A stretch of 58,301 nucleotides of DNA from a virus. The position numbers and the translations under genes are program-made. The notes beneath the pieces are model-generated. The model was not told where the DNA came from. It saw only the letters and a list, made by a program, of their open reading frames with translations, and made no database searches. Positions 1 to 46,113 of this stretch are shown in pieces. Each line of letters starts with the position of its first letter. Within the stretch, counting starts at the first letter, position 1. The DNA lies in the IMG/VR virus record IMGVR_UViG_3300025889_000138, positions 1 to 58,301 of that record; one strand, 5' to 3'.

Positions 1-1434
1 ACTTCAGGCTCATCAGGAACATCAGGTTCATCTGGATCAAGTGGCACTTCAGGTTCATCAGGTTCATCTGGAACCTCAGGTTCTAGTGGTACTTCTGGCT
101 CATCAGGAACCTCAGGTTCAAGTGGAAGTTCAGGAACATCTGGTTCATCTGGATCAAGTGGCACTTCAGGTAGCTCAGGTTCAAGTGGTTCTTCAGGTTC
201 ATCTGGAACTAGTGGCTCAAGTGGAACTAGTGGTTCATCAGGAACAAGTGGATCTTCAGGTTCAAGTGGGACAAGTGGCTCATCCGGTTCTTCAGGTACT
301 TCTGGAAGTTCAGGAACATCTGGTTCAAGTGGTTCATCAGGTACTTCAGGTTCATCAGGTAGCTCAGGTTCATCTGGAACTTCAGGCTCATCAGGTACTT
401 CAGGTTCTTCAGGAACTAGTGGTTCATCTGGTTCAAGTGGTACCTCAGGTAGCTCAGGTTCATCAGGAACCTCAGGTTCATCTGGAACAAGTGGTTCAAG
501 TGGAACTTCAGGCTCATCAGGCTCATCAGGTACAAGCGGCTCAAGTGGTAGCTCAGGTACTTCAGGTATATCAGGTGTAAATGGAACAAGCGGTTCATCA
601 GGAACTAGTGGAAGTTCAGGTACATCTGGTTCATCAGGTTCTTCAGGTACAAGTGGTTCATCAGGTTCATCAGGAACTAGTGGCTCATCTGGTACTTCAG
701 GTTCATCAGGAACTAGCGGTAGTTCAGGAACATCAGGTTCTTCAGGTTCAAGTGGTACTTCAGGTAGCTCAGGCTCAAGCGGAACTAGTGGTTCCTCTGG
801 TTCAAGTGGTACCTCAGGTTCTTCTGGATCTAGTGGAACTAGTGGTTCAAGTGGTTCATCAGGAACAAGCGGTTCTTCAGGTTCTAGCGGCACATCAGGT
901 TCAAGTGGTTCCTCTGGAACAAGCGGTTCATCAGGTTCAAGCGGAACCTCCGGCTCATCTGGAACTTCAGGTTCATCAGGTACTTCTGGTTCAAGTGGTA
1001 CTTCAGGCTCATCAGGCTCATCGGGTACTTCAGGTAGTTCAGGATCAAGTGGAACCAGTGGCTCTTCAGGAACTAGTGGTAGCTCAGGCTCTTCAGGAAC
1101 TTCAGGTAGCTCAGGTTCATCTGGAACTTCAGGCTCATCTGGAACTTCAGGATCAAGTGGAACTTCAGGTTCATCTGGTTCATCAGGTACAAGTGGTTCA
1201 AGTGGTTCATCAGGAACGTCAGGTTCATCTGGTTCTTCTGGAACTTCTGGATCAAGCGGAACATCAGGCTCATCCGGTACAAGCGGCTCAAGTGGTAGCT
1301 CAGGTACTTCAGGTATAAGTGGAGTTAATGGAACATCAGGTTCTTCAGGAACTAGTGGTTCTAGTGGAACTTCAGGTTCAAGTGGTTCATCAGGAACTAG
1401 CGGTTCATCAGGTTCAAGTGGAACAAGTGGTACA
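1..1434. repeat. Degenerate 9-bp TSG/SSG coding repeat
   Basis: About 478 consecutive Gly-X-Y codon triplets encode Gly-Thr-Ser or Gly-Ser-Ser. The protein pattern is nearly perfect while codons vary freely (tca, agt, tct, agc; aca, act, acc). A distinctive GISGVNGTSG unit occurs twice, at about 565 and 1312, 747 nt apart. Confidence 0.9.
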
Positions 1435-2268
1435 ACTACTATAACTAATAACATAGATGATCGTGTATTAACAGCTACAGGTACAGCTACTATTAATGGT
1501 GAATCTAATCTAACATTTGATGGTAGTACATTAGGAGTAATAGGCACAGTCGGAATCGGTACAGATAGTCCACTGTATCAACTCCATGTATCAAGTAGTA
1601 CTGCTGCTTTAGGAGTATATGAAAGAGCAGGAGGAGCTGCCTTATATTTAGAAGGTCAGTTAACTCGAGGTGTATTAGGTACTGTAAGTACACATCCATT
1701 ACTAATTGCATACAATAGTGTTGAAGTAGCAAGATTTACAGGAACATCATTTGATGTAACTGGATCTTTAAATGTAGGAACTGGAACTGATATAAACTTA
1801 ATTGGAGGAGGAAATTTAGAAACCAACGGAGGAAATGTAAATACAACTGGAGGAAGTATTAACATCGGAGGAGGAGCTGTAAACGGTACAACCCCAGGAT
1901 CTTCAGTCAATGTTGATGTTATTAATGCCAATATTAAAAACTTTGATATTACTCATCCATCTAAAGGCGAACCTCATAGATTAAGATACTCAGTACTTGA
2001 AGGTCCAGAAATTGGTGTATATGTTAGAGGTAGATTAACTAATAACAATATAATTGAATTACCATATTATTGGGTTGACTTAGTACATGAAGATTCTATA
2101 ACAGTAACTTTAACACCAATTGGTAAACATCAAAACCTATATGTAATATCTGCAAACCCAGAAAAAGTGGTAGTAGGAATTGAAGAAGGAACAATTGATT
2201 GTTACTATGTAATATATGGAGAAAGAAAAGATGTAGACAAATTAACAATTGAATACATTAAAGAATAA
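1..2268 (+). CDS. Giant Ser/Thr-Gly repeat tail fibre protein (5' truncated)
   Basis: Open from base 1 in frame 1 to a TAA at 2266-2268, so the start lies upstream of the window. Residues 1 to about 478 are uninterrupted Gly-X-Y triplets made almost only of TSG and SSG, with no proline. The remaining 278 residues are a fibre tip. They contain a VGIGTDSPLYQLHV-type segment common in phage fibres, Gly-rich beta repeats, and a C-terminal block with HPSKGEPHRLRYSVLEGPE followed by VYVRGR, a pattern I associate with tail fibre tips of T4-like marine phages. It is probably a receptor-binding or fibre-shaft protein of the virion. The Ser/Thr density makes it a plausible O-glycosylation substrate for the enzymes at 5955-15280. 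The fibre role is confident; the receptor is unknown. Confidence 0.85.
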   Translation, partial: TSGSSGTSGSSGSSGTSGSSGSSGTSGSSGTSGSSGTSGSSGSSGTSGSSGSSGTSGSSGSSGSSGSSGTSGSSGTSGSSGTSGSSGSSGTSGSSGSSGTSGSSGTSGSSGSSGTSGSSGSSGSSGTSGSSGTSGSSGTSGSSGSSGTSGSSGSSGTSGSSGTSGSSGTSGSSGSSGTSGSSGSSGTSGISGVNGTSGSSGTSGSSGTSGSSGSSGTSGSSGSSGTSGSSGTSGSSGTSGSSGTSGSSGSSGTSGSSGSSGTSGSSGSSGTSGSSGSSGTSGSSGSSGTSGSSGSSGTSGSSGSSGTSGSSGSSGTSGSSGTSGSSGTSGSSGTSGSSGSSGTSGSSGSSGTSGSSGTSGSSGSSGTSGSSGSSGTSGSSGTSGSSGTSGSSGSSGTSGSSGSSGTSGSSGSSGTSGSSGTSGSSGTSGSSGSSGTSGISGVNGTSGSSGTSGSSGTSGSSGSSGTSGSSGSSGTSGTTTITNNIDDRVLTATGTATINGESNLTFDGSTLGVIGTVGIGTDSPLYQLHVSSSTAALGVYERAGGAALYLEGQLTRGVLGTVSTHPLLIAYNSVEVARFTGTSFDVTGSLNVGTGTDINLIGGGNLETNGGNVNTTGGSINIGGGAVNGTTPGSSVNVDVINANIKNFDITHPSKGEPHRLRYSVLEGPEIGVYVRGRLTNNNIIELPYYWVDLVHEDSITVTLTPIGKHQNLYVISANPEKVVVGIEEGTIDCYYVIYGERKDVDKLTIEYIKE

Positions 2269-2275
2269 TATTTAT
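2267..2275 (+). promoter_or_regulatory. Late-type promoter motif AATATTTAT
   Basis: It overlaps the stop codon of the preceding fibre gene and lies exactly 5 nt before the ATG at 2281. It shares the invariant ATATTTAT core with other late-gene upstream regions in this window. No TTTG box lies at the upstream -33 position. Confidence 0.6.
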
Positions 2276-2280
2276 TATAA

Positions 2281-5019
2281 ATGGCTAAAAACGTCCAAAT
2301 AATACCAGCATCAGGAACTGTAGATTTTCAAGATGGAACTCAATCAGTTATCCTGACAATGAAAAAATCAGGAGCTGTAGCTACAGGTATTGATATTTCT
2401 GTAAATGGTAGTGCTCCTGTGAGTATTCAAGGTACTCAAGGCACTACAGGTACTCAAGGTACTACTGGTCCTCAAGGTACAACAGGTACACAAGGAACAA
2501 CAGGTACTCAAGGTATTCAAGGACGTCAAGGTGTAACAGGTCCACAAGGTACTACAGGTACCCAAGGTACTACAGGTACTCAAGGAGCAACCGGAACTCA
2601 AGGCACTACTGGTACTCAAGGCACTACTGGTACTCAAGGTACTACAGGCGCGCAAGGTATACAAGGTATAACAGGTAACACAGGTCCTACTGGTCCAACA
2701 GGCCCACAAGGTACAACAGGTGCTACAGGTTCACAAGGTACTACAGGCGCGCAAGGTATACAAGGTATAACAGGTAACACAGGTCCTACTGGTCCAACAG
2801 GCCCACAAGGTACAACAGGTACACAAGGTACTTTAGGTCCTGTAGGTCCACAAGGAGCAATAGGTGCTCAAGGTATTCAAGGTGTTATAGGTCCTGTAGG
2901 AGCAACAGGTCCACAAGGAACAACCGGGGGAACAGGTCCAACAGGTCCTCAAGGCACTACTGGTACTCAAGGAACTATAGGTGCTCAAGGTATCCAAGGA
3001 CGTCAAGGTATAACAGGTAACACTGGAGGAACAGGTCCAACAGGTCCTCAAGGTACAACCGGGGGAACAGGTCCAACAGGTCCTCAAGGCACTACTGGTA
3101 CTCAAGGAACTATAGGTGCTCAAGGTATACAAGGTAGACAAGGTATAACAGGTAATACAGGCCCAATAGGACCAGATGGTCCTACAGGTCCTACAGGTTC
3201 ACAAGGTACTACAGGCGCACAAGGTATACAAGGTATAACAGGTAACACAGGCGGAACAGGCCCAACTGGTCCAACAGGTCCAACTGGTCCAACTGGTCCA
3301 CAAGGTACAACAGGTGCTCAAGGTATACAAGGTAGACAAGGTATAACAGGTAACACAGGCGGAACAGGTCCAACAGGTCCTCAAGGTACTTTAGGTCCTA
3401 TAGGTCCTCAAGGAGCTATTGGTGCTCAAGGTATTCAAGGTATTATAGGTCCTGTAGGAGCTACTGGACCACAAGGAACAACAGGTGGAACAGGTCCAAC
3501 AGGTCCTCAAGGCACTACTGGTACTCAAGGAACTACAGGTGCTCAAGGTATACAAGGACGTCAAGGTATAACAGGTAACACTGGAGGAACAGGTCCAACA
3601 GGTCCTCAAGGTACGACCGGGGGAACAGGTCCAACAGGTCCAACAGGTCCTCAAGGTACAACAGGTACCCAAGGAGCTATTGGTGCTCAAGGTATACAAG
3701 GTCGTCAAGGAATAACAGGTAATATAGGCCCAATAGGACCAGACGGTCCTACAGGCCCTACAGGCCCAACAGGCCCACAAGGAACAACTGGTGGAACAGG
3801 TGCTCAAGGTATACAAGGTAGACAAGGTATAACAGGTAACACTGGAGGAACAGGCCCAACAGGTCCTCAAGGAACAACTGGAGGTACTGGAGGAACAGGT
3901 CCAACAGGTGCTCAAGGTATACAAGGTATAACAGGTAACACTGGAGGAACAGGTCCAACAGGTCCTCAAGGAACAACTGGAGGTACTGGAGGAACAGGTC
4001 CAACAGGTGCTCAAGGTATACAAGGTATAACAGGTAACACTGGAGGAACAGGTCCAACAGGTCCTCAAGGAACAACTGGAGGTACTGGAGGAACAGGTCC
4101 AACAGGCCCACAAGGAACAACTGGAGGTACTGGAGGAACAGGCCCAACAGGTGCTCAAGGTATACAAGGTATAACAGGTAACACTGGAGGAACAGGACCA
4201 ACTGGTCCACAAGGAACAACAGGTGGAACAGGAGGTACAGGACCAACTGGTCCACAAGGTACTATCGGAGCACAAGGTATTCAAGGACGTCAAGGTATAA
4301 CAGGAGACCAAGGAAACCCAGGTGTCCCTGGAACTCAAGGTACTACTGGAGCAACAGGTACTCAAGGAACTACCGGTGCTCAAGGTATCCAAGGACGTCA
4401 AGGTATAACTGGTGGAACAGGAGGAACAGGTCCACAAGGCACAGCGGGTAGTAATGGAAGCACAGGTCCAACAGGTCCACAAGGTACAACAGGCGGAACA
4501 GGAGGAACAGGTCCAACAGGCCCACAAGGAACAACTGGTGGAACAGGAGGAACAGGTCCACAAGGTGCAGCAGGTAGTAATGGAAGCACAGGTCCAACAG
4601 GCCCACAAGGTACAACTGGTGGGTTTACTACAAACTCAAACGCTCAAATTAACTCATTAGGTGTTAATACAACTGCTCCAGGTATTGCTGGAGAAATTAG
4701 AGCAACAGGTAACATTATAGCATTCTACTCAGATGCTAGATTAAAAACTAATGTTGAAAAAATTGAATCAGCTTTAGAATTAATTTCTAAACTTAGAGGT
4801 GTAAGATACAATTGGACTGAAGAAGCTGAAGCAATGGCCCCTTCAAGAGCTGGTAAAACAGAAATTGGAGTTATTGCTCAAGAAGTTGAAAAAGTACTTC
4901 CTGAAATAGTAGTTGATTGGGATGAATATAAGACAGTAGTTTATGATAGATTAACAGCATTGTTGATTGAAGCTGTTAAAGAATTAATAGATGAAGTAAA
5001 CCAATTAAAAAATAAATAA
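2281..5019 (+). CDS. Collagen-like tail fibre with C-terminal S74 intramolecular chaperone
   Basis: 912 residues. Residues 1-50 form a non-repetitive N-terminal domain, presumably the virion anchor. Residues 51-781 are continuous Gly-X-Y triplets ([34 protein letters not shown]). Residues 782-912 carry a tip and the S74 (endosialidase-type) chaperone: [12 protein letters not shown] near 816, then [22 protein letters not shown] and a terminal coiled coil. In this family the domain drives trimerisation and then cleaves itself off, using the Ser and Lys of the SDxRxK motif, both present here. Proline occurs only in the X position (GPT, GPQ). A late-type motif directly precedes the ATG. A trimeric host-recognition fibre is the natural reading. 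Confidence 0.92.
2431..4623. repeat. Collagen-like Gly-X-Y coding repeat
   Basis: About 731 residues of Gly-X-Y in larger modules, such as a GAQGIQG(RQ)[15 protein letters not shown] unit repeated many times. Near-identical DNA blocks recur (for example 3840-4180), so slippage and recombination should change fibre length readily. Confidence 0.9.
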
Positions 5020-5712
5020 ATGGCAATACCTAGTACTAATGTTTATTTAGAAAATATTTATTGGGAAGCTCAATTTGGAGGAGGAAGTGGTAATCCTGGT
5101 AGTGGAATTAGTTTTGGAGACTTAGCAGGATATTCTTATTTTGATGGTTCTAATGGTAGTGGTACTATATCCTACAACGCCTGGGGCCAAAATTCAGCAG
5201 GAGGTGTAAATAGAATATATGGCTTACCTATAGCTGCTAACCCCGGACCTTATGAATTTAATGATTATAAAAGTTTAGTTTATTTTTATGATCAAAGTAG
5301 TTATCAAGTTACTTTAACTGTAATAAATAACCTAGCTCCACCTCCACCTCCACCTCCTCCTATTAATAACGATGTACAAGACTGCAATTTATCCTTTTAT
5401 GACAATTCAGGAACTTATCTTTATTTAGCAGGTAACTCAGGAGGAGTACCAACATTTAGTAGTTTTGGCCCTACAGACATATCACAAAATAATACCCCTA
5501 TTATAGCCCAAGGTTATTGGTATATAGATTTAAGTATGGATCCTGGTTTTGGAGGAGGTTCTTGTGACATAAGCATAAATGGAACAGGATATGTTACAGG
5601 AGCAGGAATAGGTGGAGGTAGTAACCTTTTTGATTGGAATACATATGGAGCGGCGGCTATAGCTAATGCTGGATCTTTTATTGGATTAGATGTGGTAGTA
5701 ACTGTTTATTAA
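5020..5712 (+). CDS. Virion-associated protein with polyproline linker
   Basis: 230 residues beginning immediately after the preceding stop codon (TAAATG). It has two Gly/Tyr/Asn-rich halves joined by an eight-proline run near residue 107 and followed by a Cys-containing beta-rich half. The composition fits a fibre tip or fibre-attached adhesin. I recognise no family. It has no promoter of its own and is expected to be co-transcribed with the collagen-like fibre. Confidence 0.75.
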   Translation: MAIPSTNVYLENIYWEAQFGGGSGNPGSGISFGDLAGYSYFDGSNGSGTISYNAWGQNSAGGVNRIYGLPIAANPGPYEFNDYKSLVYFYDQSSYQVTLTVINNLAPPPPPPPPINNDVQDCNLSFYDNSGTYLYLAGNSGGVPTFSSFGPTDISQNNTPIIAQGYWYIDLSMDPGFGGGSCDISINGTGYVTGAGIGGGSNLFDWNTYGAAAIANAGSFIGLDVVVTVY

Positions 5713-5714
5713 TT

Positions 5715-5912
5715 ATGCCTACTTATACTTTTATATCAACAAGACAATTTTTAGGTTATATACCTTCATCTACTTTAGAAGAAACCATTTTTAATAAATG
5801 TAAAGAAGTAAAATCTTTATATAGAATTAGCGGAGTTAACCCTAGATATTATTTTTACCTTACAACTTTTTTACAAGAATATTTTCAAGATAAAGTAGGA
5901 AATCCGGAATAA
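5715..5912 (+). CDS. Small hypothetical protein
   Basis: 65 residues, rich in Tyr/Phe, starting 3 nt after the previous stop codon in an AATTATG context. No recognisable domain. It is the last gene of the fibre block, and the next promoter follows it directly. Confidence 0.6.
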   Translation: MPTYTFISTRQFLGYIPSSTLEETIFNKCKEVKSLYRISGVNPRYYFYLTTFLQEYFQDKVGNPE

Positions 5913-5914
5913 AA

Positions 5915-5944
5915 TTTGGTTTTTTAAAATAAATTTGTTATATT
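5915..5944 (+). promoter_or_regulatory. Host-type promoter for the fibre-decoration operon
   Basis: TTTGG at 5915-5919, 18 nt, then TTATATT at 5938-5944, ending 10 nt before the ATG at 5955. It has the same geometry as eight other sites in the window. The predicted leader is only a few nucleotides. Confidence 0.75.
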
Positions 5945-5954
5945 ATAATTAATT

Positions 5955-6536
5955 ATGTACTCTAGACCTATATTTGATCCTAATTTAGAAATTGATCAAA
6001 CAAACTACTACTGGTTCGAAAATGGATTCTCTTCAGATGAAGCAGATGAAATCTTAAAACTTACAAAAGACTATGAATTTGAACAAGCTACTATTATATC
6101 TGGCAATACATCAGATATAAGAAATAGTAATATCAAATGGATAGCACCAAGTGAAAATTCTTCTTGGATTTATGACCGTTTAATGGGTTGTATTAAAGAA
6201 GCTAATAGTGTTTGGAAATTTAATCTTTATTCTGTTTTAGATGATATTCAATATACAGAATATAGAGGCGGTGGTGGACATTATAACTGGCATATAGATA
6301 TCGGCCCAGGTTCAATTTCCCATCGTAAAGTATCAGTTATTGTACAACTTTCTGATCCTTCAGAATATACTGGAGGTGTTTTAGAAATTAGTTCAGGCAG
6401 TAACACCCAAAAAGTTTCAAATAAAAAAGGAGCAGTTATTGTTTTCCCTTCATTTTTACAACACAGAATAACCCCTGTAGCCTCAGGTTTAAGAAAAAGC
6501 TTAGTATTATGGGCTGGTGGAGAACACTATAAGTAA
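5955..6536 (+). CDS. 2-oxoglutarate/Fe(II) dioxygenase, prolyl-4-hydroxylase-like
   Basis: 193 residues with the double-stranded beta-helix signature of this superfamily. The iron ligands are H113 and D115 (YNWHIDIG) and H170 (FLQHRITPV), and the 2-oxoglutarate-binding basic residue is R180 or K181. The intervening VSVIVQLSDPSEYTGGVLE strand is typical of P4H and PKHD-type enzymes. It would hydroxylate a substrate using O2, 2-oxoglutarate and Fe(II). It is the first gene of the operon immediately after two collagen-like fibres, one of them rich in Gly-Pro-Thr, so fibre proline is an obvious candidate substrate. That is inference; a sugar or nucleotide-linked substrate is also possible. Confidence 0.85.
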   Translation: MYSRPIFDPNLEIDQTNYYWFENGFSSDEADEILKLTKDYEFEQATIISGNTSDIRNSNIKWIAPSENSSWIYDRLMGCIKEANSVWKFNLYSVLDDIQYTEYRGGGGHYNWHIDIGPGSISHRKVSVIVQLSDPSEYTGGVLEISSGSNTQKVSNKKGAVIVFPSFLQHRITPVASGLRKSLVLWAGGEHYK

Positions 6537-6537
6537 T

Positions 6538-7527
6538 ATGATTGACAATTTAGTTAAATTAGTTTTAAATAAAGGAGGTTCTATATCTCATTTAAAGATT
6601 CCTTCAATTGATAGTAGAAATACAGGTTTATGTAATCCCTCTATTTTTGTTGATAATGATGGAACTATTTTACTTAATTTAAGAAATGTAGGTTATCTTT
6701 TTTACCATTGTGAAAATGAACAAAAGTTTCAAGGACGTTGGGGCCCATTAGCTTATCTTCATCCTGAAAATGATCCACATTTAAGAACAACTAACTTTTT
6801 ATGTATTTTAGATCCTAAAACTTTAGAAATAAAATCATACAAAGAAGTAAACACTTCAGAGTTAGACATTGAACCAGTTTGGGAATTTATTGGGTTAGAA
6901 GATGCTCGAGTAGTTCGTTGGGATGGTGTTTTATATATTACAGGTGTTAGAAGAGATACTAAACCAAATGGAGAAGGTAGAATGGAACTTTCTGAAATAG
7001 ATGATTATAGAACATCAAATGAAATCTCAAGAGTAAGAATAGAACCACCTAATGATCCTAATTCATATTGTGAAAAAAATTGGATGCCTATTAATGATAT
7101 GGATTATTGTTATGTCAAATGGGCTAACCCAGTAGAAATTGTAAAAGTTGATCCTATTAAAGGAACTAGTAAAACTATATTTTTAGGTAAATTTAAAGAA
7201 ATAAGTAAAAACCATGATTTAAGAGGTGGTTCATCTGTTGTGAAATGGAAAGATTATCGTTTATGTGTTGTTCATGAAGTAGATTTTTGGCAAAATGAAA
7301 ATAATAATAAAGATGGTATTTATAACCATAGAATAATTGTTTATGATAAAGATTGGAATATTGTAAAATATTCTGATGTATTTAAGTTTATGACTGGAAG
7401 AATTGAATTTGTTTGTGGAGCAGCGGTTGTGGAAAATGATTTAATTATCACTTATGGATTCCATGACAGCGCAGCTTTCGCTTTAAAAATCCCAGAAAAT
7501 GTTGTAGAGGAACTAATCAATGGATAA
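6538..7527 (+). CDS. GH130-like five-bladed beta-propeller glycosidase/phosphorylase
   Basis: 329 residues from the ATG at 6538. An in-frame GTG at 6517 lies inside the previous gene and is less likely. NPSIFVDNDG, EDARVVRWDGVLYITGVR, EKNWMPI and LRGGSSVVKW resemble the blade motifs of GH130 mannoside phosphorylases and related propellers. GH130 enzymes cleave or form beta-mannosidic bonds with phosphate, so this one may process a glycan or supply a sugar phosphate. The similarity was judged by eye, and another propeller family is possible. It overlaps the next gene by 8 nt, fitting a single operon. Confidence 0.6.
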   Translation: MIDNLVKLVLNKGGSISHLKIPSIDSRNTGLCNPSIFVDNDGTILLNLRNVGYLFYHCENEQKFQGRWGPLAYLHPENDPHLRTTNFLCILDPKTLEIKSYKEVNTSELDIEPVWEFIGLEDARVVRWDGVLYITGVRRDTKPNGEGRMELSEIDDYRTSNEISRVRIEPPNDPNSYCEKNWMPINDMDYCYVKWANPVEIVKVDPIKGTSKTIFLGKFKEISKNHDLRGGSSVVKWKDYRLCVVHEVDFWQNENNNKDGIYNHRIIVYDKDWNIVKYSDVFKFMTGRIEFVCGAAVVENDLIITYGFHDSAAFALKIPENVVEELING

Positions 7528-8749
7528 TATTTTAAAGAATTTTATAGATAATCCATATCATCCAGAAACAAATTTTGTATTTGGTGAACAATATTATCAA
7601 GAAGGACATAAAGCAGCCGCTTTGTCTTTATTTTTAAGAGCAGCAGAATATGGTTTTGATAAAGATTTAACATATGAAGCTTTAATTAAAGTAGCTTTAT
7701 GTTTAAAAGAAATAGAAGGACGTCCTCATTCAACTAGAGGAGCTATCTTAAATGCTATTACTTTTGATCGTGAACGTCCTGAAGCTTATTATCATTTAAG
7801 TTATGATTATCAAGTTAAAGGAGAATGGCAAGAATCATATTTAGCAGCTGTTCAAGGTTTAGATAAAATAAAAAATATCAAACCTACTTTAACTAGTATT
7901 GATTTTCCTGGTGAATATGCTTTAATATTCCAAAAAGCAGTAGCAGGATGGTGGATTGGATATTGTGATGAGTCAAGAAAATTATTTAATCACTTATTAC
8001 AGGAATATTCTATGCGTCCTGAATTTGTAGAAGCTTGCTATAATAATTTATCTACAATTCATGGGATTCAATATCCAACGTTAACTTATACTAAAGAAGA
8101 ACACTCAAAATTAAGATACAAATTTAAAAATTCTGAAAAAATTGAGAAAAATTATTCCCAAACTTACCAGGATTTGTTTGTATTAAGTATGTTAGATGGA
8201 AAAGAAAAAGGCACTTATGTTGAAATAGGAGCAGCTGATCCTTTCCATAATAGTAATACAGCTTTATTAGAAAAAGAATTTAACTGGACAGGGGTATCAT
8301 TAGAAATCAATGAAGAAGAAGTAAATAAATTTAACTCTCAACGTTCTAACGCGTGCCTTTTACAAGATGCTACAGTTGTCAACTATGAAGAGTTATTTGT
8401 TAATAACAACTTTAGTGAGGTTATAGATTACCTTCAAGTTGATTGTGAACCGGCTGAAATAACATTTAAAGTGTTACTTTCAATTCCTTTTGATAAATAT
8501 AAATTTAGAGTAATCACCTTTGAACATGATTATTATTTAAATCATTCTTTAGATTATAGAAATCTTTCTAGAAAATTCTTAGAAGCTCATGGTTATAAAA
8601 GAGTAGTAGGAGATATAGCTCCTGACTCAAATAGTACATTTGAAGACTGGTGGATACATCCTGAATTAGTAGATTCTGAAATTTTTACAGCAATGGTAGA
8701 TTATTCTGAAAAAATTAAAAGAGCAGATCATTATATATTAAATGGCTAA
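7520..8749 (+). CDS. TPR-like domain fused to FkbM-type methyltransferase
   Basis: 409 residues. Residues 1 to about 200 are helical repeats resembling TPRs (AALSLFLRAAEYGF, AYYHLSYDYQVKGEW), like the scaffolds of sugar and protein glycosylation enzymes. Residues about 215-380 form a Rossmann methyltransferase with GTYVEIGAADPF near 230 and the acidic LEINEEE strand after it. FkbM-family enzymes usually methylate sugar hydroxyls using S-adenosylmethionine. It overlaps neighbours by 8 nt at both ends. Confidence 0.75.
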   Translation: MDNILKNFIDNPYHPETNFVFGEQYYQEGHKAAALSLFLRAAEYGFDKDLTYEALIKVALCLKEIEGRPHSTRGAILNAITFDRERPEAYYHLSYDYQVKGEWQESYLAAVQGLDKIKNIKPTLTSIDFPGEYALIFQKAVAGWWIGYCDESRKLFNHLLQEYSMRPEFVEACYNNLSTIHGIQYPTLTYTKEEHSKLRYKFKNSEKIEKNYSQTYQDLFVLSMLDGKEKGTYVEIGAADPFHNSNTALLEKEFNWTGVSLEINEEEVNKFNSQRSNACLLQDATVVNYEELFVNNNFSEVIDYLQVDCEPAEITFKVLLSIPFDKYKFRVITFEHDYYLNHSLDYRNLSRKFLEAHGYKRVVGDIAPDSNSTFEDWWIHPELVDSEIFTAMVDYSEKIKRADHYILNG

Positions 8750-9587
8750 TCAAGATTGGAAAATAACACCCTATGCTACTATGGAGATTACAACTAATCT
8801 ACCTAAAAAAGGCTGTGTTGTTGATTGCATTTTTTGTCCTCAAAGAACTTTAGTTAAAAATTATAATGGAACCCGTCATTTATCTTTAGATGACTTTAAA
8901 AGAGCAATAGATAAAATCCCAACAGAAGTTAGAATTACTTTTGCTGGTTTTACTGAACCTTGGACTAATAGGCATTGTACTGATATGTTACTTTACGCTT
9001 ATGAAAAAGGACATAGAATAGCAGCATTTACTACAGCTGTAGGAATGACAGTAGATGATGTAGAAAGACTTAAAGATGTTTCCTATGATAATGGTCCTAA
9101 CGCTGGTTTTGTTTTACATTTACCTGACCAAGAAAGATTAGCAAAACATCCTATAACTCCTCGTTATATAGAAGTTATTGAAGCTTTCGGGCTCTATCAA
9201 GATTCTTTTAACACATTTCATTTAATGTCAATGGGTACTGTCCATGAATCTATTAATCATATTTTTAGTCATGCTAGCAATCCTGAAATGTGGTCTAGAG
9301 CAGGAAACTTAATAGGTGAAGCCATTCTAAAACCAGAACTGCTAAATGTTAAAGAATTATTCAGATCAGTATATCATGGTGAGTCACCTAAAACATGCGG
9401 CTGTATAGAAAATTTATACCATAACGTGATGCTTCCAAACGGAGATGTATCTTTATGTTGTATGGATTATTCTTTAAGTTATATTATAGGAAATATGTTT
9501 GAACAAGAATATGAAGATGTTATTCCAAAATTAAATTCTTGTTATGATATGTGTCGTTATTGTGAAAATGGAATTAACCCTAATTAA
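8742..9587 (+). CDS. Radical SAM protein with SPASM-like C-terminal Cys cluster
   Basis: 281 residues. C25-VVD-C29-IF-C32 is a canonical CX3CX2C site for the [4Fe-4S] cluster that cleaves S-adenosylmethionine. A second set of cysteines in the C-terminal third (CGC, LCC, CYDMC, C) with the NVMLPNGDVSLCC pattern matches SPASM-type auxiliary cluster domains. Such proteins modify peptides or sugars by radical chemistry. Its place among glycosyl- and methyltransferases beside the fibres suggests a role in decorating the virion, but the substrate cannot be read from sequence. Confidence 0.8.
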   Translation: MANQDWKITPYATMEITTNLPKKGCVVDCIFCPQRTLVKNYNGTRHLSLDDFKRAIDKIPTEVRITFAGFTEPWTNRHCTDMLLYAYEKGHRIAAFTTAVGMTVDDVERLKDVSYDNGPNAGFVLHLPDQERLAKHPITPRYIEVIEAFGLYQDSFNTFHLMSMGTVHESINHIFSHASNPEMWSRAGNLIGEAILKPELLNVKELFRSVYHGESPKTCGCIENLYHNVMLPNGDVSLCCMDYSLSYIIGNMFEQEYEDVIPKLNSCYDMCRYCENGINPN

Positions 9588-9590
9588 AAT

Positions 9591-10592
9591 ATGAAATCAA
9601 TAATTATAGTTTCTGCTTATTGCCCTGATGATGAAAGAAAAACAATGCTTGAAAATTGTATTAATTCTCTTCAACCTATTAGAAAAGATTTTGATATTTT
9701 AATTTCAAGCCATTCTTATATTCCTGAATATATTAGTAAAAAAGTAGATTTTACTTTTTATGATGCTAACAATGATTTAATATATGATTGGGATTTAATG
9801 AATCTTCCATGGTTTTCACCTTATGAAGGTTTACATATAGTTTCTTCATTAATATCTAATTTTAGTACTTATTCTGCTTGTAATAGAATAATAATGGGTG
9901 GTTTAGGTATAGCTAAAAATTTTGGATATGAAAAAGCCCATTATATAGATTATGATGCTATTATTAATGATTATTCTGAGTTTTATGAAAATAATGAATT
10001 ACTAAATAAGTATGTAACAATCCAATATAAAAAAGAATACAGAAATTTTGATTGGAATGTTGAAGGTGGTGTAGGTGTTTTCCAATCAATAAATTTAAAT
10101 AAAATAAATAAAATTTTTACAACATATGATGAAAAAGAGTTATTAAAAATTCTAAAAGAAGCCCCTAATAAAACAAATGAAATTATATATCAGGATTTAT
10201 ATAAATTAGATGGAGAGGAAATATTGTATAAAAACTGGGATGATTTACTAAATCAAGGAAACATATTTAATCAATCTATATCTACACAAAAAGATGATTT
10301 AAATGATTGGACTGTTCCTTTTTATGATACTAAAACAGGTAAATTAAATGTTATTGTTTGGAACTCTAAAAAAGATTATCCTATTAATACTAGTTTTATT
10401 ATAAATCAAGAAAAAATAATCACAATAAACAATATAAACAAATACCAATGGAGTATAAGAGAAGTAGATGATATCAATAATGTTAATGAAATATTAATTA
10501 TTGTTGATAACAAAATTAAAAACCACATCCTAATAAACACCCCAGAATTAAAAGAGAAATTTAAACGTAATAATCAAACACAATATAATTAA
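9591..10592 (+). CDS. GT-A-like glycosyltransferase (paralogue 1)
   Basis: 333 residues. The N-terminal IIIVSAYCPDDERKTMLENC start and the acidic DxD-like AHYIDYDAIINDY motif near residue 122 fit a metal-dependent GT-A fold. The last 100 residues are an Asn/Ile-rich beta region. The next protein has the same start, spacing and IDYD motif, so the two look like tandem duplicates. Donor and acceptor are unknown. Confidence 0.6.
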   Translation: MKSIIIVSAYCPDDERKTMLENCINSLQPIRKDFDILISSHSYIPEYISKKVDFTFYDANNDLIYDWDLMNLPWFSPYEGLHIVSSLISNFSTYSACNRIIMGGLGIAKNFGYEKAHYIDYDAIINDYSEFYENNELLNKYVTIQYKKEYRNFDWNVEGGVGVFQSINLNKINKIFTTYDEKELLKILKEAPNKTNEIIYQDLYKLDGEEILYKNWDDLLNQGNIFNQSISTQKDDLNDWTVPFYDTKTGKLNVIVWNSKKDYPINTSFIINQEKIITINNINKYQWSIREVDDINNVNEILIIVDNKIKNHILINTPELKEKFKRNNQTQYN

Positions 10593-11516
10593 ATGAAAAA
10601 AATAGCTTTAATAACTAGTTTTTGCAATAATAAGGAAAAAATTAATGTGTTAAAAAATAAATTAGAGACATTAAAAAATCTTAATATAGATACAATCCTT
10701 TATACAGCTATCCACCTCCCAGAAAAAATTTATAAAAAAGCAGACTATACTATAATTTCAAAAGAAAACCTAGTATTTGATTGGCCTATAAAAGCTTACT
10801 ATCAATGGACTGATATTATTATTGGAAACCTAAACATTAAAATGAGTCGCACATACCCAGATTATGGTTATGCTGTTTTAAATCAAATTAAAAAAATGGC
10901 TAATTTAGCTTTATCTATGGATTATGATCACTTTTTTATAATAGATTATGATACTCATATCACTGATGAAGTAAAAAATATTCTTTTAGACAGTAAACCA
11001 AATAGTTTTTTTCCATCAAAAAGAGAAACATCTGTTTGGCCTATAGGACTTCATTTAATATCTTTAAATAAAACTTATTTAAATAGGTTTAAAAATCTAA
11101 TAACCCCAGAATCTTATCTAACTGAAAAAAATGGAGATGCTTTTTCATGGACTCATAAAGCTATAAAATTTATTCCTGCTGTTATTGAAAATGTTGAACC
11201 TATAGAAGATTTAGTTTATAATTTTAATGAGTTTGATTTTTTTAATTATTCTACAACAAATGAGTATAAATTATTTATTCATAAAACAGACTTTGATAAT
11301 ATAAAACTTCTTTTTTATGAATTTGAAGGAGTTAAAAATATAAAAATTATAAGTGATAATTTTGAAAAAGAATTTAATTTAAAAACTTGGGAACATATTG
11401 AATTACCATTTAATACTTGTTCTTTATTAAAAATTTTATGTAATGATGAAGAAATTGATTATACAAAAAACATAATTTCTATTGGACAAAATATTTTAAC
11501 AATTAATAATATATGA
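10593..11516 (+). CDS. GT-A-like glycosyltransferase (paralogue 2)
   Basis: 307 residues beginning at the base after the preceding stop codon. MKKIALITSFCNN, a conserved FDWPIKAYYQW segment and FFIIDYDTHITDE (the DxD-like site) parallel the preceding protein. The C-terminal 90 residues form a beta-rich appendage also seen in its neighbours. It was probably formed by tandem duplication and now diverges strongly. Confidence 0.58.
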   Translation: MKKIALITSFCNNKEKINVLKNKLETLKNLNIDTILYTAIHLPEKIYKKADYTIISKENLVFDWPIKAYYQWTDIIIGNLNIKMSRTYPDYGYAVLNQIKKMANLALSMDYDHFFIIDYDTHITDEVKNILLDSKPNSFFPSKRETSVWPIGLHLISLNKTYLNRFKNLITPESYLTEKNGDAFSWTHKAIKFIPAVIENVEPIEDLVYNFNEFDFFNYSTTNEYKLFIHKTDFDNIKLLFYEFEGVKNIKIISDNFEKEFNLKTWEHIELPFNTCSLLKILCNDEEIDYTKNIISIGQNILTINNI

Positions 11517-12352
11517 TAAATGTAACTTATAATAGAGAAAATAATTCAACTTTAGTAGAATTAAATAATTTAACTTTAATTAAAGAACACCTTCCATTAA
11601 CTATCCAATTTAAAAATATTATTTCAAAAGAAATCCATTATGAAGTTAAATTAACAGACAATTGTTGGGCAGAATGGAAAGGTGGAGAATTTATTACTGA
11701 TGTTTTGATTTATTCTTCTAATGGGACTTTATTACATGAACATAAATGGGATGTCACTGTTAATGGAGATATTCATGAAAAAATGTTATGGTACTATTTA
11801 AAAGGTAGACAATTACAAGGATTAAAATCTAACGGTTTAGTTATTGGTGCTCATGATGGAAGAAACGGACATTGGATATACCCCGTTAAAGAAAATTTAA
11901 CAGAAGCTACTTTAATTGACGGTAGTGATAACCAGTTTAAAAAACTAGAAGAAAATTATTTTAATTATTTAAATACAAAATTTAAAAATATTATAGTTAC
12001 AACAGATGGATCTGATGTAGAATGGTATCAAGGCGGAGAAGGCTATACAGATACAGTAATACCATCAGTAATCAATGAATGGTTAGACTCTTCAGAAATA
12101 ACTAAAACGTATAGAAAAAGTATATCAATTAATGATTTAATAAAAGATCAAAATTATGATTGGTTACATTTAGATGTAGAAGGTTTAGATGGAGATTTAA
12201 TTTTAGCTTTGGAATCTAGACCTAATTTAATAATTTATGAAGATGAAAATTTAGATATAATTACTAAAGCTAAGCTTGATATTTGGTTTTTAGCAAATTC
12301 TTATAAAACAATTAAACACACTTGTAATACACTAGCTATTAAAAATGACTAA
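11513..12352 (+). CDS. FkbM-type methyltransferase with N-terminal beta domain
   Basis: 279 residues, starting in an ATGA overlap with the previous stop codon. Residues 1-95 form a beta-rich domain (WAEWKGGEFITDVLIY) resembling the barrel that precedes the heptosyltransferase in the next gene. Residues 105-279 contain GLVIGAHDGRNGHW (SAM loop) and LHLDVEGLDGDL, the FkbM signature. It is probably a sugar O-methyltransferase acting on the same glycan as its operon partners. Confidence 0.72.
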   Translation: MINVTYNRENNSTLVELNNLTLIKEHLPLTIQFKNIISKEIHYEVKLTDNCWAEWKGGEFITDVLIYSSNGTLLHEHKWDVTVNGDIHEKMLWYYLKGRQLQGLKSNGLVIGAHDGRNGHWIYPVKENLTEATLIDGSDNQFKKLEENYFNYLNTKFKNIIVTTDGSDVEWYQGGEGYTDTVIPSVINEWLDSSEITKTYRKSISINDLIKDQNYDWLHLDVEGLDGDLILALESRPNLIIYEDENLDIITKAKLDIWFLANSYKTIKHTCNTLAIKND

Positions 12353-14624
12353 ACCAAAAGTATATGTTCATGGTTCTTATATAGGAACTACAGGTTATAA
12401 CCAACATACAAGAGACTTTTTTAGAGAGTTATCTAAACATTTACAATTAAAAGTTAGGAATTTCACAATTGGTAAAACATGGGAAAGTTTTAATAATACC
12501 CCTCATAATAATGAACCTTATATTAATGAAATAGATAAATCTATTTTATATGAACAGATATTATGGAATGATAAGGGTGGGAGAGATAACTATAAAATAT
12601 ATTCTGACAAATCTAAAGAATTTCTACATGATTTAAATATTGTTTTATGTGAAACTAATCATCATTTATTTTATGATGGATACAATGGTCCAAAAATAGC
12701 TTATAATGTTTGGGAAACAACCCAACAACCAGAAGAATTTTTTAATAAATTAAAAGAATTCGATGAATTATGGGTTCCTTCAAAATGGCAGCGTGATGTA
12801 ACTATTAAACAAGGCTACCCAAAGGATAAAATTAAAGTTGTTCCTGAAGGAGTTGATATTCATACTTTTTACCCTGAAGAAACAACTCATGAGTTAACTT
12901 CAGATGGTAGATTTAAATTCTTTTTAGCAGGTAGATGGGATTATAGAAAATCAACTAAAGAAATTATTGAAACATTTTTAAATACATTTAATGAAAATGA
13001 TCCTGTTGACTTAATTGTTTCTATAGATAATCCTTTTTCAGGAGATGGTTTAGAAACAACAGAAAATAGATTAAAATATTATGGTTTAACAGATCCAAGA
13101 ATTAAAGTAGTTCATTTTCCATCTAGAGAAGATTATATTAAAATACTAAAATCATGTAATGTGTTTTTATCTTGTGCTCGTTCTGAGGGTTGGAATTTAC
13201 CTTTAATTGAGGCAATGGCCTGTGGTATACCCTCTATTTATTCAAACTGTTCAGGTCAACTTGAATTTGCTGAAAATAAAGGAATACCAATAAATATATT
13301 AGGTGAAAAATCAGCAAATGATTCATCATATAATCATTTTAATGATTACACAGGTAATTATTATGAACCTGATTTTAACCATTTACAACTAATGATGATG
13401 TATTCTTATAAAAAGTATGATGAATGTAAGAAAAATGCTTTAAAAGAATCAGAAGAAATTAAACATAATTTTAGTTGGGAAAAAGTAGGACAAATTGGTT
13501 ATAAAACTATAATAGAATTTTATGAAAGGAATAAACATAAAAATGCTCAATTAAAAAATGAAATAAAAATTAGTTATTTTGATGGTCCTAAAATAGAAAT
13601 TGTAGGAGATAAACTAGAACAATATCATATTGAATTTTTAGATGAAAATAATAATATTATTCATGAGGACACTATCACTAATAATATGTGGACAAAATGT
13701 TCTAGAACCTATTATACTAAATGGAAAATTAAAGTTAATGGAAATATAATTGAAGAACTTAACTTAAATAATAAACGAGTATTAATAGGATTAGAGTCAA
13801 AATCTATTGGTGATACAATTGCTTGGACACCCTATGCTGTTGATTTTGCTAAAAAACATAATTGTAAAGTAATTTTAAGCACATTTCATAACCATTGGTT
13901 TAAAGGATTAGAGACATATAAAGACATTGAATTTATAGAACCAGGACAATCAATAAACTGTGATGTTATATATCGAATAGGATGGTTTAGAGGAGAATCA
14001 GGTAAATGGGACAAATTTGAAATGTATCCTAATTATCCTCAAACTCAACCACTCCAAAAAACAGCATCAGATATTTTAGGTTTAGAATTTAAAGAATTAA
14101 ATTATGGGATAAATTTTGCCCCAAAATCAAAATCAATAAAAACAAATTATATTGTTATTGCCCCTGAATCAACTGCTGGTTGTAAAGAGTGGCCTTATGA
14201 CAGTTGGGTATCATTATCTAAAATGTTGCGTGAATTAGGATACACAGTAGTAACACTTACAAATAAACCCTATAATATAAAAGGTAATTTAAATATTCAC
14301 GGTAAAACATTAAATGAATCTATGGATATTCTTTATAATGCTAAATTTTTAATAGGATTAAGTTCAGGACTATCTTGGATAAATTGGGCTTTAGGAAAAC
14401 AAACAGTGATGATTAGTGGTTTTTCTCAAAAAGATCATGAATTTATATCTAATAATATAAGAATACAAAATGAACATGCTTGTAATTCATGTTGGAATAA
14501 TACTAACTTTATTTTTGACCCTGGAAATTGGGATTGGTGCCCAATATGGGAAGGAACAGATAAACAACATATTTGTGAAAAATCAATCTCACCATTAACT
14601 GTATTTAATTTATTACCTTTATGA
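12345..14624 (+). CDS. Bifunctional GT4 glycosyltransferase and TibC/Aah-type protein O-heptosyltransferase
   Basis: 759 residues. Residues 1 to about 395 are a GT4 enzyme: LWVPSKWQRD, VVPEGVDIHTFYPEE, the GRWDYRKS donor loop, and EGWNLPLIEAMACG, which is the E-x7-E motif. From about 405 a second enzyme follows: a small beta domain (YFDGPKIEIVGD, RTYYTKWKIKVNG), then KRVLIGLESKSIGDTIAWTPY and SSGLSWINWALGKQTVMISGF, and a Cys cluster CNSC-x15-C-x11-C near 711-746. This order matches bacterial autotransporter heptosyltransferases (TibC, Aah), which glycosylate serines in repeat proteins and carry a four-Cys metal finger. The combination suggests one enzyme that primes Ser/Thr on fibre repeats and then extends the sugar. 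Family membership is confident; the target is inferred. Confidence 0.85.
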   Translation: MTKPKVYVHGSYIGTTGYNQHTRDFFRELSKHLQLKVRNFTIGKTWESFNNTPHNNEPYINEIDKSILYEQILWNDKGGRDNYKIYSDKSKEFLHDLNIVLCETNHHLFYDGYNGPKIAYNVWETTQQPEEFFNKLKEFDELWVPSKWQRDVTIKQGYPKDKIKVVPEGVDIHTFYPEETTHELTSDGRFKFFLAGRWDYRKSTKEIIETFLNTFNENDPVDLIVSIDNPFSGDGLETTENRLKYYGLTDPRIKVVHFPSREDYIKILKSCNVFLSCARSEGWNLPLIEAMACGIPSIYSNCSGQLEFAENKGIPINILGEKSANDSSYNHFNDYTGNYYEPDFNHLQLMMMYSYKKYDECKKNALKESEEIKHNFSWEKVGQIGYKTIIEFYERNKHKNAQLKNEIKISYFDGPKIEIVGDKLEQYHIEFLDENNNIIHEDTITNNMWTKCSRTYYTKWKIKVNGNIIEELNLNNKRVLIGLESKSIGDTIAWTPYAVDFAKKHNCKVILSTFHNHWFKGLETYKDIEFIEPGQSINCDVIYRIGWFRGESGKWDKFEMYPNYPQTQPLQKTASDILGLEFKELNYGINFAPKSKSIKTNYIVIAPESTAGCKEWPYDSWVSLSKMLRELGYTVVTLTNKPYNIKGNLNIHGKTLNESMDILYNAKFLIGLSSGLSWINWALGKQTVMISGFSQKDHEFISNNIRIQNEHACNSCWNNTNFIFDPGNWDWCPIWEGTDKQHICEKSISPLTVFNLLPL

Positions 14625-15280
14625 TAAACTTAGAAAATTTTAATTGGGGCCCAACATCAGAATGGTATAAAGATCAACTTACTAGAGAAATGTTTGAAGA
14701 AAACATTTATGAAAAATATTTTCCTGTTGAAGAAGGAGATATAGTAGTTGACTTTGGAGCCTCTATAGGAGACTTTATCTGGTCTATTAAGGATAAAAAA
14801 CCAAAACATTGTTGGGTTGTTGAACCTTTAAATTCATATTTTGATATTTTACAAGAAAATTTATTAGGTTATTCTGTTTCTTTTATTAAAGCTTTTCTTA
14901 GTCAAGAAGAAACAACAGAAGTACAATGGGATGGGTTAGCTAGTGAATGTAGAAGTTTAACTTTTAAAAAATTTATAAAAGAAAATAATATTAAATATAT
15001 TGATTTTTTAAAAACAGATTGTGAAGGAGGTGAGTATAGCATCTTCACAGAAGAAAATATAGAGTATGTTTTAAACAACATTAGAAAAATATCAGGAGAA
15101 TGGCATTTAAGCACTCCTGAATTAAAAGAAAAATTTAGAAATTTTAGGGATAACTACTTAATTAAATTTAATAATTTTGAAGTTTATTCTGTAGACGGTG
15201 TTAATATCAAATGGGATTTATGGAATGAACATTTTATAGAGTATTATAATGAAGTTATAATTCATATAGATAATCGTTAA
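14621..15280 (+). CDS. FkbM-type methyltransferase
   Basis: 219 residues in an ATGA overlap with the glycosyltransferase fusion. VVDFGASIGDF is the SAM-binding loop, CWVVEPL the acidic strand, and YIDFLKTDCEGGEY the FkbM hallmark. It is the last gene of the decoration operon. It is the shortest of the three FkbM proteins here and lacks any extra domain. A glycan O-methyltransferase role is likely. Confidence 0.8.
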   Translation: MINLENFNWGPTSEWYKDQLTREMFEENIYEKYFPVEEGDIVVDFGASIGDFIWSIKDKKPKHCWVVEPLNSYFDILQENLLGYSVSFIKAFLSQEETTEVQWDGLASECRSLTFKKFIKENNIKYIDFLKTDCEGGEYSIFTEENIEYVLNNIRKISGEWHLSTPELKEKFRNFRDNYLIKFNNFEVYSVDGVNIKWDLWNEHFIEYYNEVIIHIDNR

Positions 15281-15310: not shown

Positions 15311-16132
15311 ATGGCTTTAGAAACATTATCAAAAACAGGTATAGTTAACGGACAAACAGTCCAAGACTATCATGTTACTCAATCTATAGATGCTTTAACT
15401 GGAACTGTAGGATATGCTTTAACAGTTTCTGGTTCCTTTACTCTTGTTGGAACAACAGGTAGTGGTTACTTTGCTAGTTCTTTAACTACTGACCAAGTTA
15501 GACCTTCAAATGTAGTTAGTAATAAAGGATATTCAATTCCTTATTTAGCGGCCACATCTTCTACAGCCACTTTATATTATACTAAAGGTCAAGAATCAGG
15601 AGGTGAAACTTATTTAGAATACAATCCTGTAACTAATTATTTATTTACTACTTCTTCTTATGCTACTTCAGCTTCACAAGCTATATCTGCTTCTTATGCT
15701 CCATTAGGTACACCAACTTCATATAATCCAAATTATGTAAAAATTGATGATGTAGCTTATACTTCATCTACACCATATGTAATTAATGATTCTGTTCCTT
15801 CATTAATTTATATTTCCCAATCAGGTATTAATGCTCAAAGTAATAATAATGAGTTAGGATTAAGTTTTTCTCCATTAACTGGTAAAGATGGTAAAATAAT
15901 TACTTTTAATATTTTCTTTGAAAAAAGCGATTTAGAAACAAATTTTGTCTATGTTACTTCTTCAGGGGTTAGCATTTTTGGTTTAAATAATAATAGTATA
16001 GGAGCAGGTAATGATGACACATTACAAAATTTAACAGGTATTAATAATATGGCTAGTTTTGATTTCCAATGGTTAGACGGTGGAGGAGCTACAGGTATGG
16101 CTCAAGGTTGGTATTTTATTAGAAGATCTTAA
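15311..16132 (+). CDS. Virion structural protein, fibre/baseplate-associated
   Basis: 273 residues rich in Ser, Thr, Gly and Tyr with repetitive beta sequence (YATSASQAISASYAP). No catalytic motif. A late-type motif sits directly upstream and the following gene is a coiled-coil protein, then the tail sheath. It is probably a tail accessory or fibre-attachment protein. No named family is recognised. Confidence 0.7.
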   Translation: MALETLSKTGIVNGQTVQDYHVTQSIDALTGTVGYALTVSGSFTLVGTTGSGYFASSLTTDQVRPSNVVSNKGYSIPYLAATSSTATLYYTKGQESGGETYLEYNPVTNYLFTTSSYATSASQAISASYAPLGTPTSYNPNYVKIDDVAYTSSTPYVINDSVPSLIYISQSGINAQSNNNELGLSFSPLTGKDGKIITFNIFFEKSDLETNFVYVTSSGVSIFGLNNNSIGAGNDDTLQNLTGINNMASFDFQWLDGGGATGMAQGWYFIRRS

Positions 16133-42509: not shown

Positions 42510-42650
42510 ATGAGCAATGTAGATACAAACCCAGCATGGGAAAAGATGTTTAAAGAAGTTCTAGATGAAATTCTTAAAAATTGTGCTTTCCTTACCTTGG
42601 AAGATTACCAAGAGTTAGTTAAATTATCAAATAAAAAAGAAAATGAATAA
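42510..42650 (+). CDS. Very small acidic protein upstream of queC
   Basis: 46 residues (MSNVDTNPAWEKMFKEV start), one predicted helix pair with a single Cys. It starts 1 nt after the previous stop codon and ends 8 nt inside queC, the tight spacing seen between real genes here. No family recognised. Confidence 0.6.
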   Translation: MSNVDTNPAWEKMFKEVLDEILKNCAFLTLEDYQELVKLSNKKENE

Positions 42651-43494: not shown

Positions 43495-43684
43495 AAAATC
43501 AAAACCATACCCATCAATGTATGTGGTAATTAATAAAGAAGGTGAAGTTTACACTGGTTTAATAAGAGGTAATATTAATTGGTCTTATAACTGGTCTGAA
43601 GCAAAACCTCTATTTAAAGAATCAACAACTTGGCTCCTGAAACATAACCCAGGAGCCGAGTTAATTAATGAAAAAGAATTATGA
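43472..43684 (+). CDS. Small hypothetical protein
   Basis: 70 residues, basic and aromatic (INWSYNWSEAKPLF), starting 23 nt inside queC. No domain recognised. Its last codons overlap the next ATG. Confidence 0.6.
   Translation: MITRRQYKKSKPYPSMYVVINKEGEVYTGLIRGNINWSYNWSEAKPLFKESTTWLLKHNPGAELINEKEL
43632..43657 (+). other. Perfect 8-bp hairpin inside a coding region
   Basis: GGCTCCTG (43632-43639) pairs with CAGGAGCC (43650-43657) around a 10-nt A-rich loop. It is GC-rich for this genome and lies just before the end of one gene and the start of the next, so it may modulate translation or RNA cleavage. It may also be chance. Confidence 0.4.
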
Positions 43685-44535: not shown

Positions 44536-44537
44536 TT

Positions 44538-45357: not shown

Positions 45358-45363
45358 AATAAT

Positions 45364-46108: not shown

Positions 46109-46113
46109 TTTAA

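Follow-up and report, generated by a model that had tools for sequence, protein, structure and literature searches.

Modular enzyme genes beside two collagen-like fibres of a T4-like viral contig, probable modifiers of the phage's own tail fibres

In this study, we analysed a 58,301-base stretch of a virus record (IMGVR_UViG_3300025889_000138; hereafter the window), a T4-like viral contig from an environmental sample, in which tail sheath and tube genes are present, and we argue that a locus at 1-15280, where two fibre genes and nine enzyme genes lie upstream of the T4-like tail sheath, probably encodes writer enzymes that modify the collagen-like tail fibres of the phage itself. The locus is more structured than in the initial annotation, with two modules and a free 2-oxoglutarate (2OG)-Fe(II) oxygenase for two fibres. 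Module A, module B and the oxygenase are each found without the others elsewhere, and the two modules apparently serve the two fibres. These components move independently of one another, and which of them are present predicts the chemistry of the repeats in the adjacent fibre, albeit with exceptions. We tentatively propose, at slightly less than even confidence, a modular phage collagen chemistry in which the 2OG oxygenase goes with Pro at the X position, the TibC-type enzyme with Ser at the Y position and the GH130/GT108-fold enzyme plus methyltransferase with Thr at the Y position, two fibre types being matched by two modules. Hydroxyproline, O-glycan and methylation chemistry at the locus is what we infer. 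The features concerned are the following.

1..2268, + strand: fibre 1, 5'-open at the contig end, 159 Gly-X-Y triplets, non-repeat C-terminal domain
2281..5019, + strand: fibre 2, 244 Gly-X-Y triplets (GTT, GPT, GGT, GPQ)
5020..5712, + strand: 230-aa protein between fibre 2 and the enzymes, without family match
5955..6536, + strand: 2OG-Fe(II) oxygenase, free element, here adjoining module A
6517..7527, + strand: propeller protein, GH130/GT108 fold, module A
7520..8749, + strand: FkbM-like methyltransferase, module A, N terminus weakly like tetratricopeptide repeats
8742..9587, + strand: radical S-adenosylmethionine (SAM)/SPASM protein, module A, CX3CX2C at residue 25
9591..10592, + strand: GT-A-fold glycosyltransferase-like protein, module B
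10593..11516, + strand: second GT-A-like family member, module B, by sequence profile only
11513..12352, + strand: FkbM-like methyltransferase, module B, below the Pfam cut-off (14.4 vs 22.7 bits)
12345..14624, + strand: GT4-TibC fusion, 759 aa, module B
14621..15280, + strand: FkbM family methyltransferase, module B

The two Gly-X-Y fibres and the nine packed enzyme genes that had been annotated at 1-15280 are thus all present on the + strand, the enzyme genes (5955 to 15280) following one another with an intergenic spacing of -20 to +3 nucleotides. As a small correction to the annotated order of fibres and enzymes, the 230-aa open reading frame (ORF) intervenes; its homologues occur at 16/187 loci, mostly shortly downstream of a fibre gene, and the protein is probably structural. 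By their long Gly-X-Y runs, both fibres are collagen-like and may form a triple helix. They differ in composition: fibre 1 is Pro-free and consists mainly of GSS (94) and GTS (60) triplets with Ser at Y in 156/159, and fibre 2 has Pro at X in 69 triplets and Thr (129) or Gln (89) at Y, together 218/244, and ends in a Peptidase_S74 intramolecular chaperone (E 6.7e-20). Single Gly-X-Y ORFs that are very long for phage fibres, of ~2,400-4,700 residues, were also seen in L290, L287, L294, L375, L378 and G011.

The modular architecture emerged from a survey of 201 units, obtained by merging loci that shared an exact 400-mer on either strand or a known record; the units were chosen partly via GH130 and TibC, so that those with neither are under-sampled. 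The methyltransferase partner accompanied the GH130-fold gene in 56/56 units and the radical SAM gene likewise in 13/13, and the GT-A gene stood alongside TibC in 51/51. Both cores (GH130-fold and TibC) came together in five units, the window included, and the 2OG oxygenase, present in 74 units, was accompanied by GH130 only in 11, by TibC only in 24, by both in 5 and by neither in view in 34. Module A (GH130-fold, FkbM-like and radical SAM proteins) pairs with fibres having Thr or Gln at Y, and module B with Gly-Thr/Ser-Ser fibres that contain no Pro; both modules occur in the window. A single glycan pathway built jointly by all the enzymes, as the initial annotation had proposed, was rejected on account of this clean separation, the methyltransferase partner and radical SAM protein being found only with the GH130-fold gene and the GT-A gene only with TibC. 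Extra genes occurred in the cassettes of L081 (14041-15879), L086 (2220-3455), L139 (1461-4296) and L166 (1379-3739), namely, a nucleotidyl transferase, an amine-oxidase-family protein, GT2 and GT4/GT25, which indicates that cassette content is highly modular. A related fibre-enzyme cassette in L009 contains at 6031-7512 a tryptophan-halogenase family protein (E 2.1e-111), a hint that halogenation is a further fibre chemistry.

The link between enzymes and fibres was examined in control loci chosen independently of the enzymes, for which the following gene served as the anchor.

16446..18224, + strand: tail sheath

These control loci were the best 80 among the matches listed, picked by the sheath alone. 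When more than 6 kb was available upstream, a Gly-X-Y fibre was present in 15/20 loci with enzymes vs 0/14 without (Fisher 1e-5), and the link held at 90% dereplication (9/12 vs 0/12, p 3e-4). A Pfam collagen search of the full records (33 of the 34, L164 being left out) found collagen repeats in 18/19 enzyme-bearing vs 1/14 enzyme-free records, the enzyme-free exception being L123 with one collagen match at 6.9e-4. Fibre composition was counted in the 98 units having a fibre of at least 20 triplets, shorter fibres being left out. Ser at Y reached a fraction of at least 0.3 in 40/48 TibC-only vs 0/20 GH130-only units (17/21 vs 0/12 at 70% dereplication) and, over all units, in 42/52 with TibC vs 2/46 without. 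Thr plus Gln at Y reached at least 0.45 in 9/48 TibC-only vs 20/20 GH130-only units (6/21 vs 12/12 at 70% dereplication). Pro at X reached at least 0.15 in 51/60 units with the 2OG oxygenase vs 2/38 without (32/36 vs 2/25 at 70% dereplication), and in 31/34 vs 2/38 when the 2OG units were those also having a core enzyme. Altogether, the enzymes, which the initial annotation had tied to the fibres by adjacency, are linked to repeat fibres beyond adjacency, through the sheath controls, the occurrence of TibC with GTS but not GPT fibres (below) and the tracking of Pro at X by the 2OG oxygenase.

These results bear on an alternative that we regard as improbable, namely, that the enzymes remodel host surface glycans (lipopolysaccharide or capsule) to exclude other phages or to aid release, their proximity to fibres reflecting a shared hypervariable region of host interaction. 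Such a role would agree with the nucleotidyl transferase, amine-oxidase-family protein and further glycosyltransferases held by some cassettes, and a report on pelagimyophages reads their tail-fibre glycosyltransferases in this way (PMC7029224). However, it predicts neither a correspondence between the type of enzyme and the residues of the fibre repeats nor that 13/14 enzyme-free sheath-matched records are without a collagen match, and it does not predict a TibC-type protein glycosyltransferase with an intact iron finger.

The test was then turned round, viral contigs being selected solely because a Gly-X-Y ORF in them encoded GPTGPTGP or GTSGTSGT. Among the matches listed, to which all counts of this reverse test refer, 50/68 GPT and 50/91 GTS loci were covered, giving 50 and 49 records (two GTS loci lie on one record). 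TibC was found in 20 of the 49 GTS records listed vs 0/50 GPT records listed (p 7e-8), and in 18/27 GTS vs 0/15 GPT among records of at least 30 kb, the GTS records being longer on average. The co-occurrence in related phages that the initial annotation had suggested looking for was observed, for TibC, with GTS-type fibres and in none of the GPT-type records listed. Moreover, 10 of the 20 TibC-bearing GTS records lacked a window-type sheath, although the records may be fragments. The TibC/Ser pairing was thereby independently confirmed, the 2OG/Pro pairing only weakly confirmed and the GH130/Thr pairing not confirmed.

Pairs that are independent on the enzyme trees were also compared. The 2OG member was richer in Pro at X in 8/8 pairs on the TibC tree (p 0.004) and in 5/5 on the GH130 tree (p 0.03). 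When at least 8 kb was in view on both sides of the enzyme, a Gly-X-Y fibre was present in 18/22 TibC units and 23/24 2OG units. Phages with both 2OG and TibC can hold both fibre types, as in L139, L169, L265, L351 and L249; in L139 and L169 the second, Ser-type fibre emerged on reading further, the expectation having been written down only afterwards. For twelve further TibC units with no Ser fibre in view, such a fibre was predicted in advance, and three of them (L265, L351 and L249) gained one upon further reading; for the five that remain beside the four described below, four records end at the fibre and L275 was not read further.

Several results weigh against modification of the phage's own fibres. 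The fibre/enzyme link in the sheath-selected loci fell to 3/6 vs 0/6 (p 0.18) at 80% dereplication. In the reverse test, the 2OG oxygenase was present in 11/50 GPT vs 4/49 GTS records (p 0.09), a direction that was reversed among records of at least 30 kb (GPT 1/15 vs GTS 4/27); the GH130-fold gene was uninformative (1/50 GPT vs 0/49 GTS), and Ser fibres were often without TibC in the record (29/49 GTS). On the 2OG tree, the TibC member was higher in Ser at Y in 8 of 11 pairs, with 3 ties and 0 lower (p 0.11, ties counted against), and the comparison of GH130 with Thr at Y (3/4 pairs plus 1 tie) was not significant. The strict prediction, made in advance, of a Pro fibre at each new 2OG locus did not hold (31/40 loci); several of the loci that missed it sit at a Pro fraction at X of 0.10 to 0.15. 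L009, L308, L337 and L100 gained no Ser fibre despite sequence left upstream, and 22/86 TibC units lacked a recognised GT4 partner. Finally, the GH130-fold gene was without a Gly-X-Y fibre in 10/20 units with at least 8 kb in view on both sides. The initial annotation had named homologous operons regularly lacking any repeat fibre as contrary evidence, and for this gene such evidence was obtained in part; in several viruses, the GH130/methyltransferase pair would therefore act on some other substrate or on a different kind of fibre.

Some of these results lend something to a second alternative, that fibre and enzyme types are merely co-inherited in a few clades and recombine as a block, with no action of the enzymes on the fibres. 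The independent contrasts are few (8, 5, 11 and 4 pairs), the last two sets are not significant, and neither is the enzyme/fibre link at 80% sheath dereplication. Yet no opposing pair was found in the four sets (8, 5, 8 and 3 in favour, 4 ties), and TibC is again paired with Ser fibres in a Microcystis phage (L186), in GTS records that show no window-type sheath and, near an opposite-strand GSS/GTS ORF, in a 735-kb uncultured phage (L285). We give shared ancestry alone roughly one chance in ten. Modification of the phage's own fibres, which is well supported and which we consider probable, is our preferred explanation.

The 2OG protein matched PF13640 (2OG-FeII_Oxy_3) with 56.3 vs a cut-off of 27 bits, and its HxD...H...R residues (H113, D115, H170 and R180) are invariant across 17 rows. 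The annotated dioxygenase family is thus upheld, by a score above cut-off and by retained metal and 2OG residues. Its nearest solved relatives are PKHD/PiuC hydroxylases, and its assignment as a collagen prolyl hydroxylase is putative, resting on the correlation with Pro at X.

The annotated GH130-like propeller was borne out by fold but not by sequence family. The model (pLDDT, the predicted local distance difference test, 87.9; Foldseek 4.7e-9) is a five-bladed propeller, with Z 23.0 to 5ay9 (root-mean-square deviation 3.4, 276 aligned) and Z 17.9 to the GT108 protein MPT-2; no sequence family was found at the thresholds used, and a profile search against the PDB found no GH130 at E up to 1. 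E128, D129 and R131, invariant across 34 rows, form an EDxR motif that may correspond to the one holding the GH130/GT108 catalytic Asp. This family was found at 68 loci in viral contigs, and a pattern scan of genome contigs matched 56 stretches, of which 8 were relatives (L188-L195); these 8 all lie in contigs from draft or metagenome-derived assemblies and may belong to viruses. In L023, L035, L038 and L042, a single fused protein combines the GH130 fold with the methyltransferase partner, which supports a sequential action of the two. The radical SAM protein scored just below the Radical_SAM cut-off (28.5 vs 29.5 bits) and above that of SPASM (22.1 vs 21.5).

Three FkbM methyltransferases had been annotated, one of which (14621-15280) lies above the cut-offs (TIGR01444, 39.6 vs 37.7; PF05050, 34.9 vs 22.7 bits), the other two (7520-8749, with 16.4 vs 22.7 bits, and 11513-12352) falling below; among 14 aligned methyltransferases, including the window's three, 9 match FkbM at E up to 0.01. 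For the two annotated GT-A enzymes, the fold is supported for the one modelled, 9591-10592 (pLDDT 89.0), whose best matches are nucleotide-diphospho-sugar transferases at a modest level (E 2.7e-5; template modelling score 0.38/0.53), but sequence-family support is lacking, the sequence profile of this protein giving no match against the PDB.

The GT4-TibC fusion was recovered as annotated, with TIGR04414 (Aah/TibC) above cut-off at residues 405-755 (214.1 vs 200 bits) and TibC in the PDB at E 1.5e-35. Its TibC domain keeps the catalytic Asp and the iron-finger motif CX2CX15CX11C and is a predicted TibC-type protein glycosyltransferase; D110, K230, W305 and the four iron-finger Cys are kept in 84/84 phage TibC domains. 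GT4 and TibC formed one protein in 47 of 86 units, were neighbouring genes in 13 and stood at a contig edge in 4; the fusion points to consecutive action of the two. In the structural report, TibC Arg-286 contacts the adenine of ADP-heptose (PMC4358343). This position holds Ser in the window's domain and a residue other than Arg in 62/84 phage TibC domains; because the adenine-reading Arg is replaced, the donor is uncertain, and heptose, the sugar of the initial annotation, is now an unlikely one.

Some phages' glycosyltransferases and 2OG oxygenases act on DNA, and a cassette that modifies the phage DNA would be another explanation for these families. Genome protection has been proposed for phage glycosyltransferases (PMC10202952); here, however, the closest families act on proteins or sugars, the cassette lies between the fibre genes and the sheath, and fibre composition is what co-varies, so that we consider DNA modification very improbable.

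For own-fibre modification, we propose a model in which the fibre chains would acquire their modifications late in infection, within the cytoplasm of the host, either ahead of trimer assembly or in its course. The 2OG oxygenase would hydroxylate Pro at X in the Gly-Pro-Y repeats of fibre 2, and the GH130/GT108-fold enzyme with its methyltransferase partner, plus the radical SAM protein, would assemble or cap a sugar carried by fibre 2, most likely on Thr at Y. On fibre 1, the TibC domain would put a nucleotide-activated sugar directly on Ser at Y of the Pro-free Gly-Thr/Ser-Ser repeats, after which the fused GT4 and the two GT-A enzymes would extend this sugar and the FkbM methyltransferases would O-methylate it. 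Action of TibC on Ser of fibre 1 is likely, and that of the 2OG oxygenase on Pro of fibre 2 is favoured with somewhat less assurance; action of the GH130-fold enzyme and methyltransferase on Thr of fibre 2 is a possibility that we hold to be under even odds, our confidence having been lowered slightly because of the recount of fibre-less GH130 loci. Collagen stability rests on Pro and modified residues, and by ordinary rules very long Pro-free Gly-Thr/Ser-Ser repeats are poor triple-helix holders. The decoration may stabilise these Pro-less helices and/or alter fibre adhesion or protease resistance. If phage enzymes do add sugars or hydroxyls, this would be a prokaryotic-virus route to modified collagen with a testable enzyme-to-substrate code; biotechnology would gain candidate protein glycosyltransferases, and one could read anew the "auxiliary" glycosyltransferases and 2OG oxygenases beside aquatic-phage tail genes.

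Parts of this proposal have counterparts in known systems. The glycans of BclA-type spore glycoproteins are on Thr and contain methylated sugars. To our knowledge, these systems have no TibC or GH130-fold partner, and they act at the spore surface instead of the virion. They share collagen-like repeats that are reported to be glycosylated, and a Bacillus prolyl hydroxylase is also reported (PMC8968730, PMC7157674), the first of which describes bacterial collagen-like proteins as mostly unmodified, with known exceptions. The TibC/Aah heptosyltransferases (TIGR04414; PDB 4rap, 4rb4) resemble the window domain by family score, by alignment from TibC residue 40 onwards and by the shared catalytic Asp, Lys-230, Trp-305 and four iron-finger cysteines. 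Unlike them, the present domain is phage-encoded, belongs to a family mostly fused to or beside GT4, and has the adenine-reading Arg replaced; their substrate is a beta-helical autotransporter, whereas the phage version adjoins collagen-like Ser-rich fibres. In its autotransporter substrate, TibC is reported to glycosylate Ser but not Thr (PMC4358343), a specificity that matches the Ser-type fibres, so that a Ser acceptor would fit. The Mimivirus lysyl hydroxylase-glucosyltransferase L230 is reported to allow a giant eukaryotic virus to modify its own collagen-like protein (PMC9614988); it is likewise a virus-encoded oxygenase plus glycosyltransferase, but one bifunctional enzyme on Lys, compared with a multi-gene phage cassette for what are apparently Pro, Ser and Thr positions. 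The collagen-like fibres of Escherichia coli prophages are also Gly-X-Y trimeric proteins of the phage fibre type; one study describes a recombinant protein without glycosylation, in a host without prolyl hydroxylase, ascribes its stability partly to Pro at X and cites Thr glycosylation as another stabiliser (PMC3368898). The GH130/GT108 mannoside phosphorylases and mannosyltransferases share the five-bladed propeller fold; unlike these, the window protein has no family sequence match, mainly viral relatives and a constant methyltransferase partner. No description of a phage arrangement of this kind was found among the titles listed for the openly licensed literature searched.

Among named phages, the sheath closest by coverage is that of Flavobacterium phage immuto (~53% identity over 93%), in which tail fibre or structural genes and many hypothetical genes, with no annotated sugar enzyme, are annotated in the 18 kb upstream of the sheath. 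For the DNA polymerase, the best match by coverage (34% identity) comes from Microcystis phage Mel-JY01, an isolated relative that has TibC and a GTS fibre; another isolated relative, Synechococcus phage DSL-LC02, has GH130-fold, FkbM and radical SAM genes with a GTT/GTQ fibre. Neither RNA families (at the gathering threshold) nor tRNAs were found in the 58,301-base window. One further row completes the feature list.

15311-16132: ORF between the enzymes and the sheath block

At 42643-46845 and 53845-55747, look-alikes of QueC, QueD, QueE, FolE and GroES/GroEL were recognised by eye only. The sequence TAATATTTAT occurs in 10 copies in the window vs 1.48 expected, on the + strand at 2266, 15296, 16130, 18809, 19879, 22516, 37868 and 45348 and on the - strand at 17323 and 57736. 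Among its eight + strand copies, five lie exactly 15 nucleotides and one 16 nucleotides upstream of the ATG of the next ORF, which suggests a conserved leader or initiation element.

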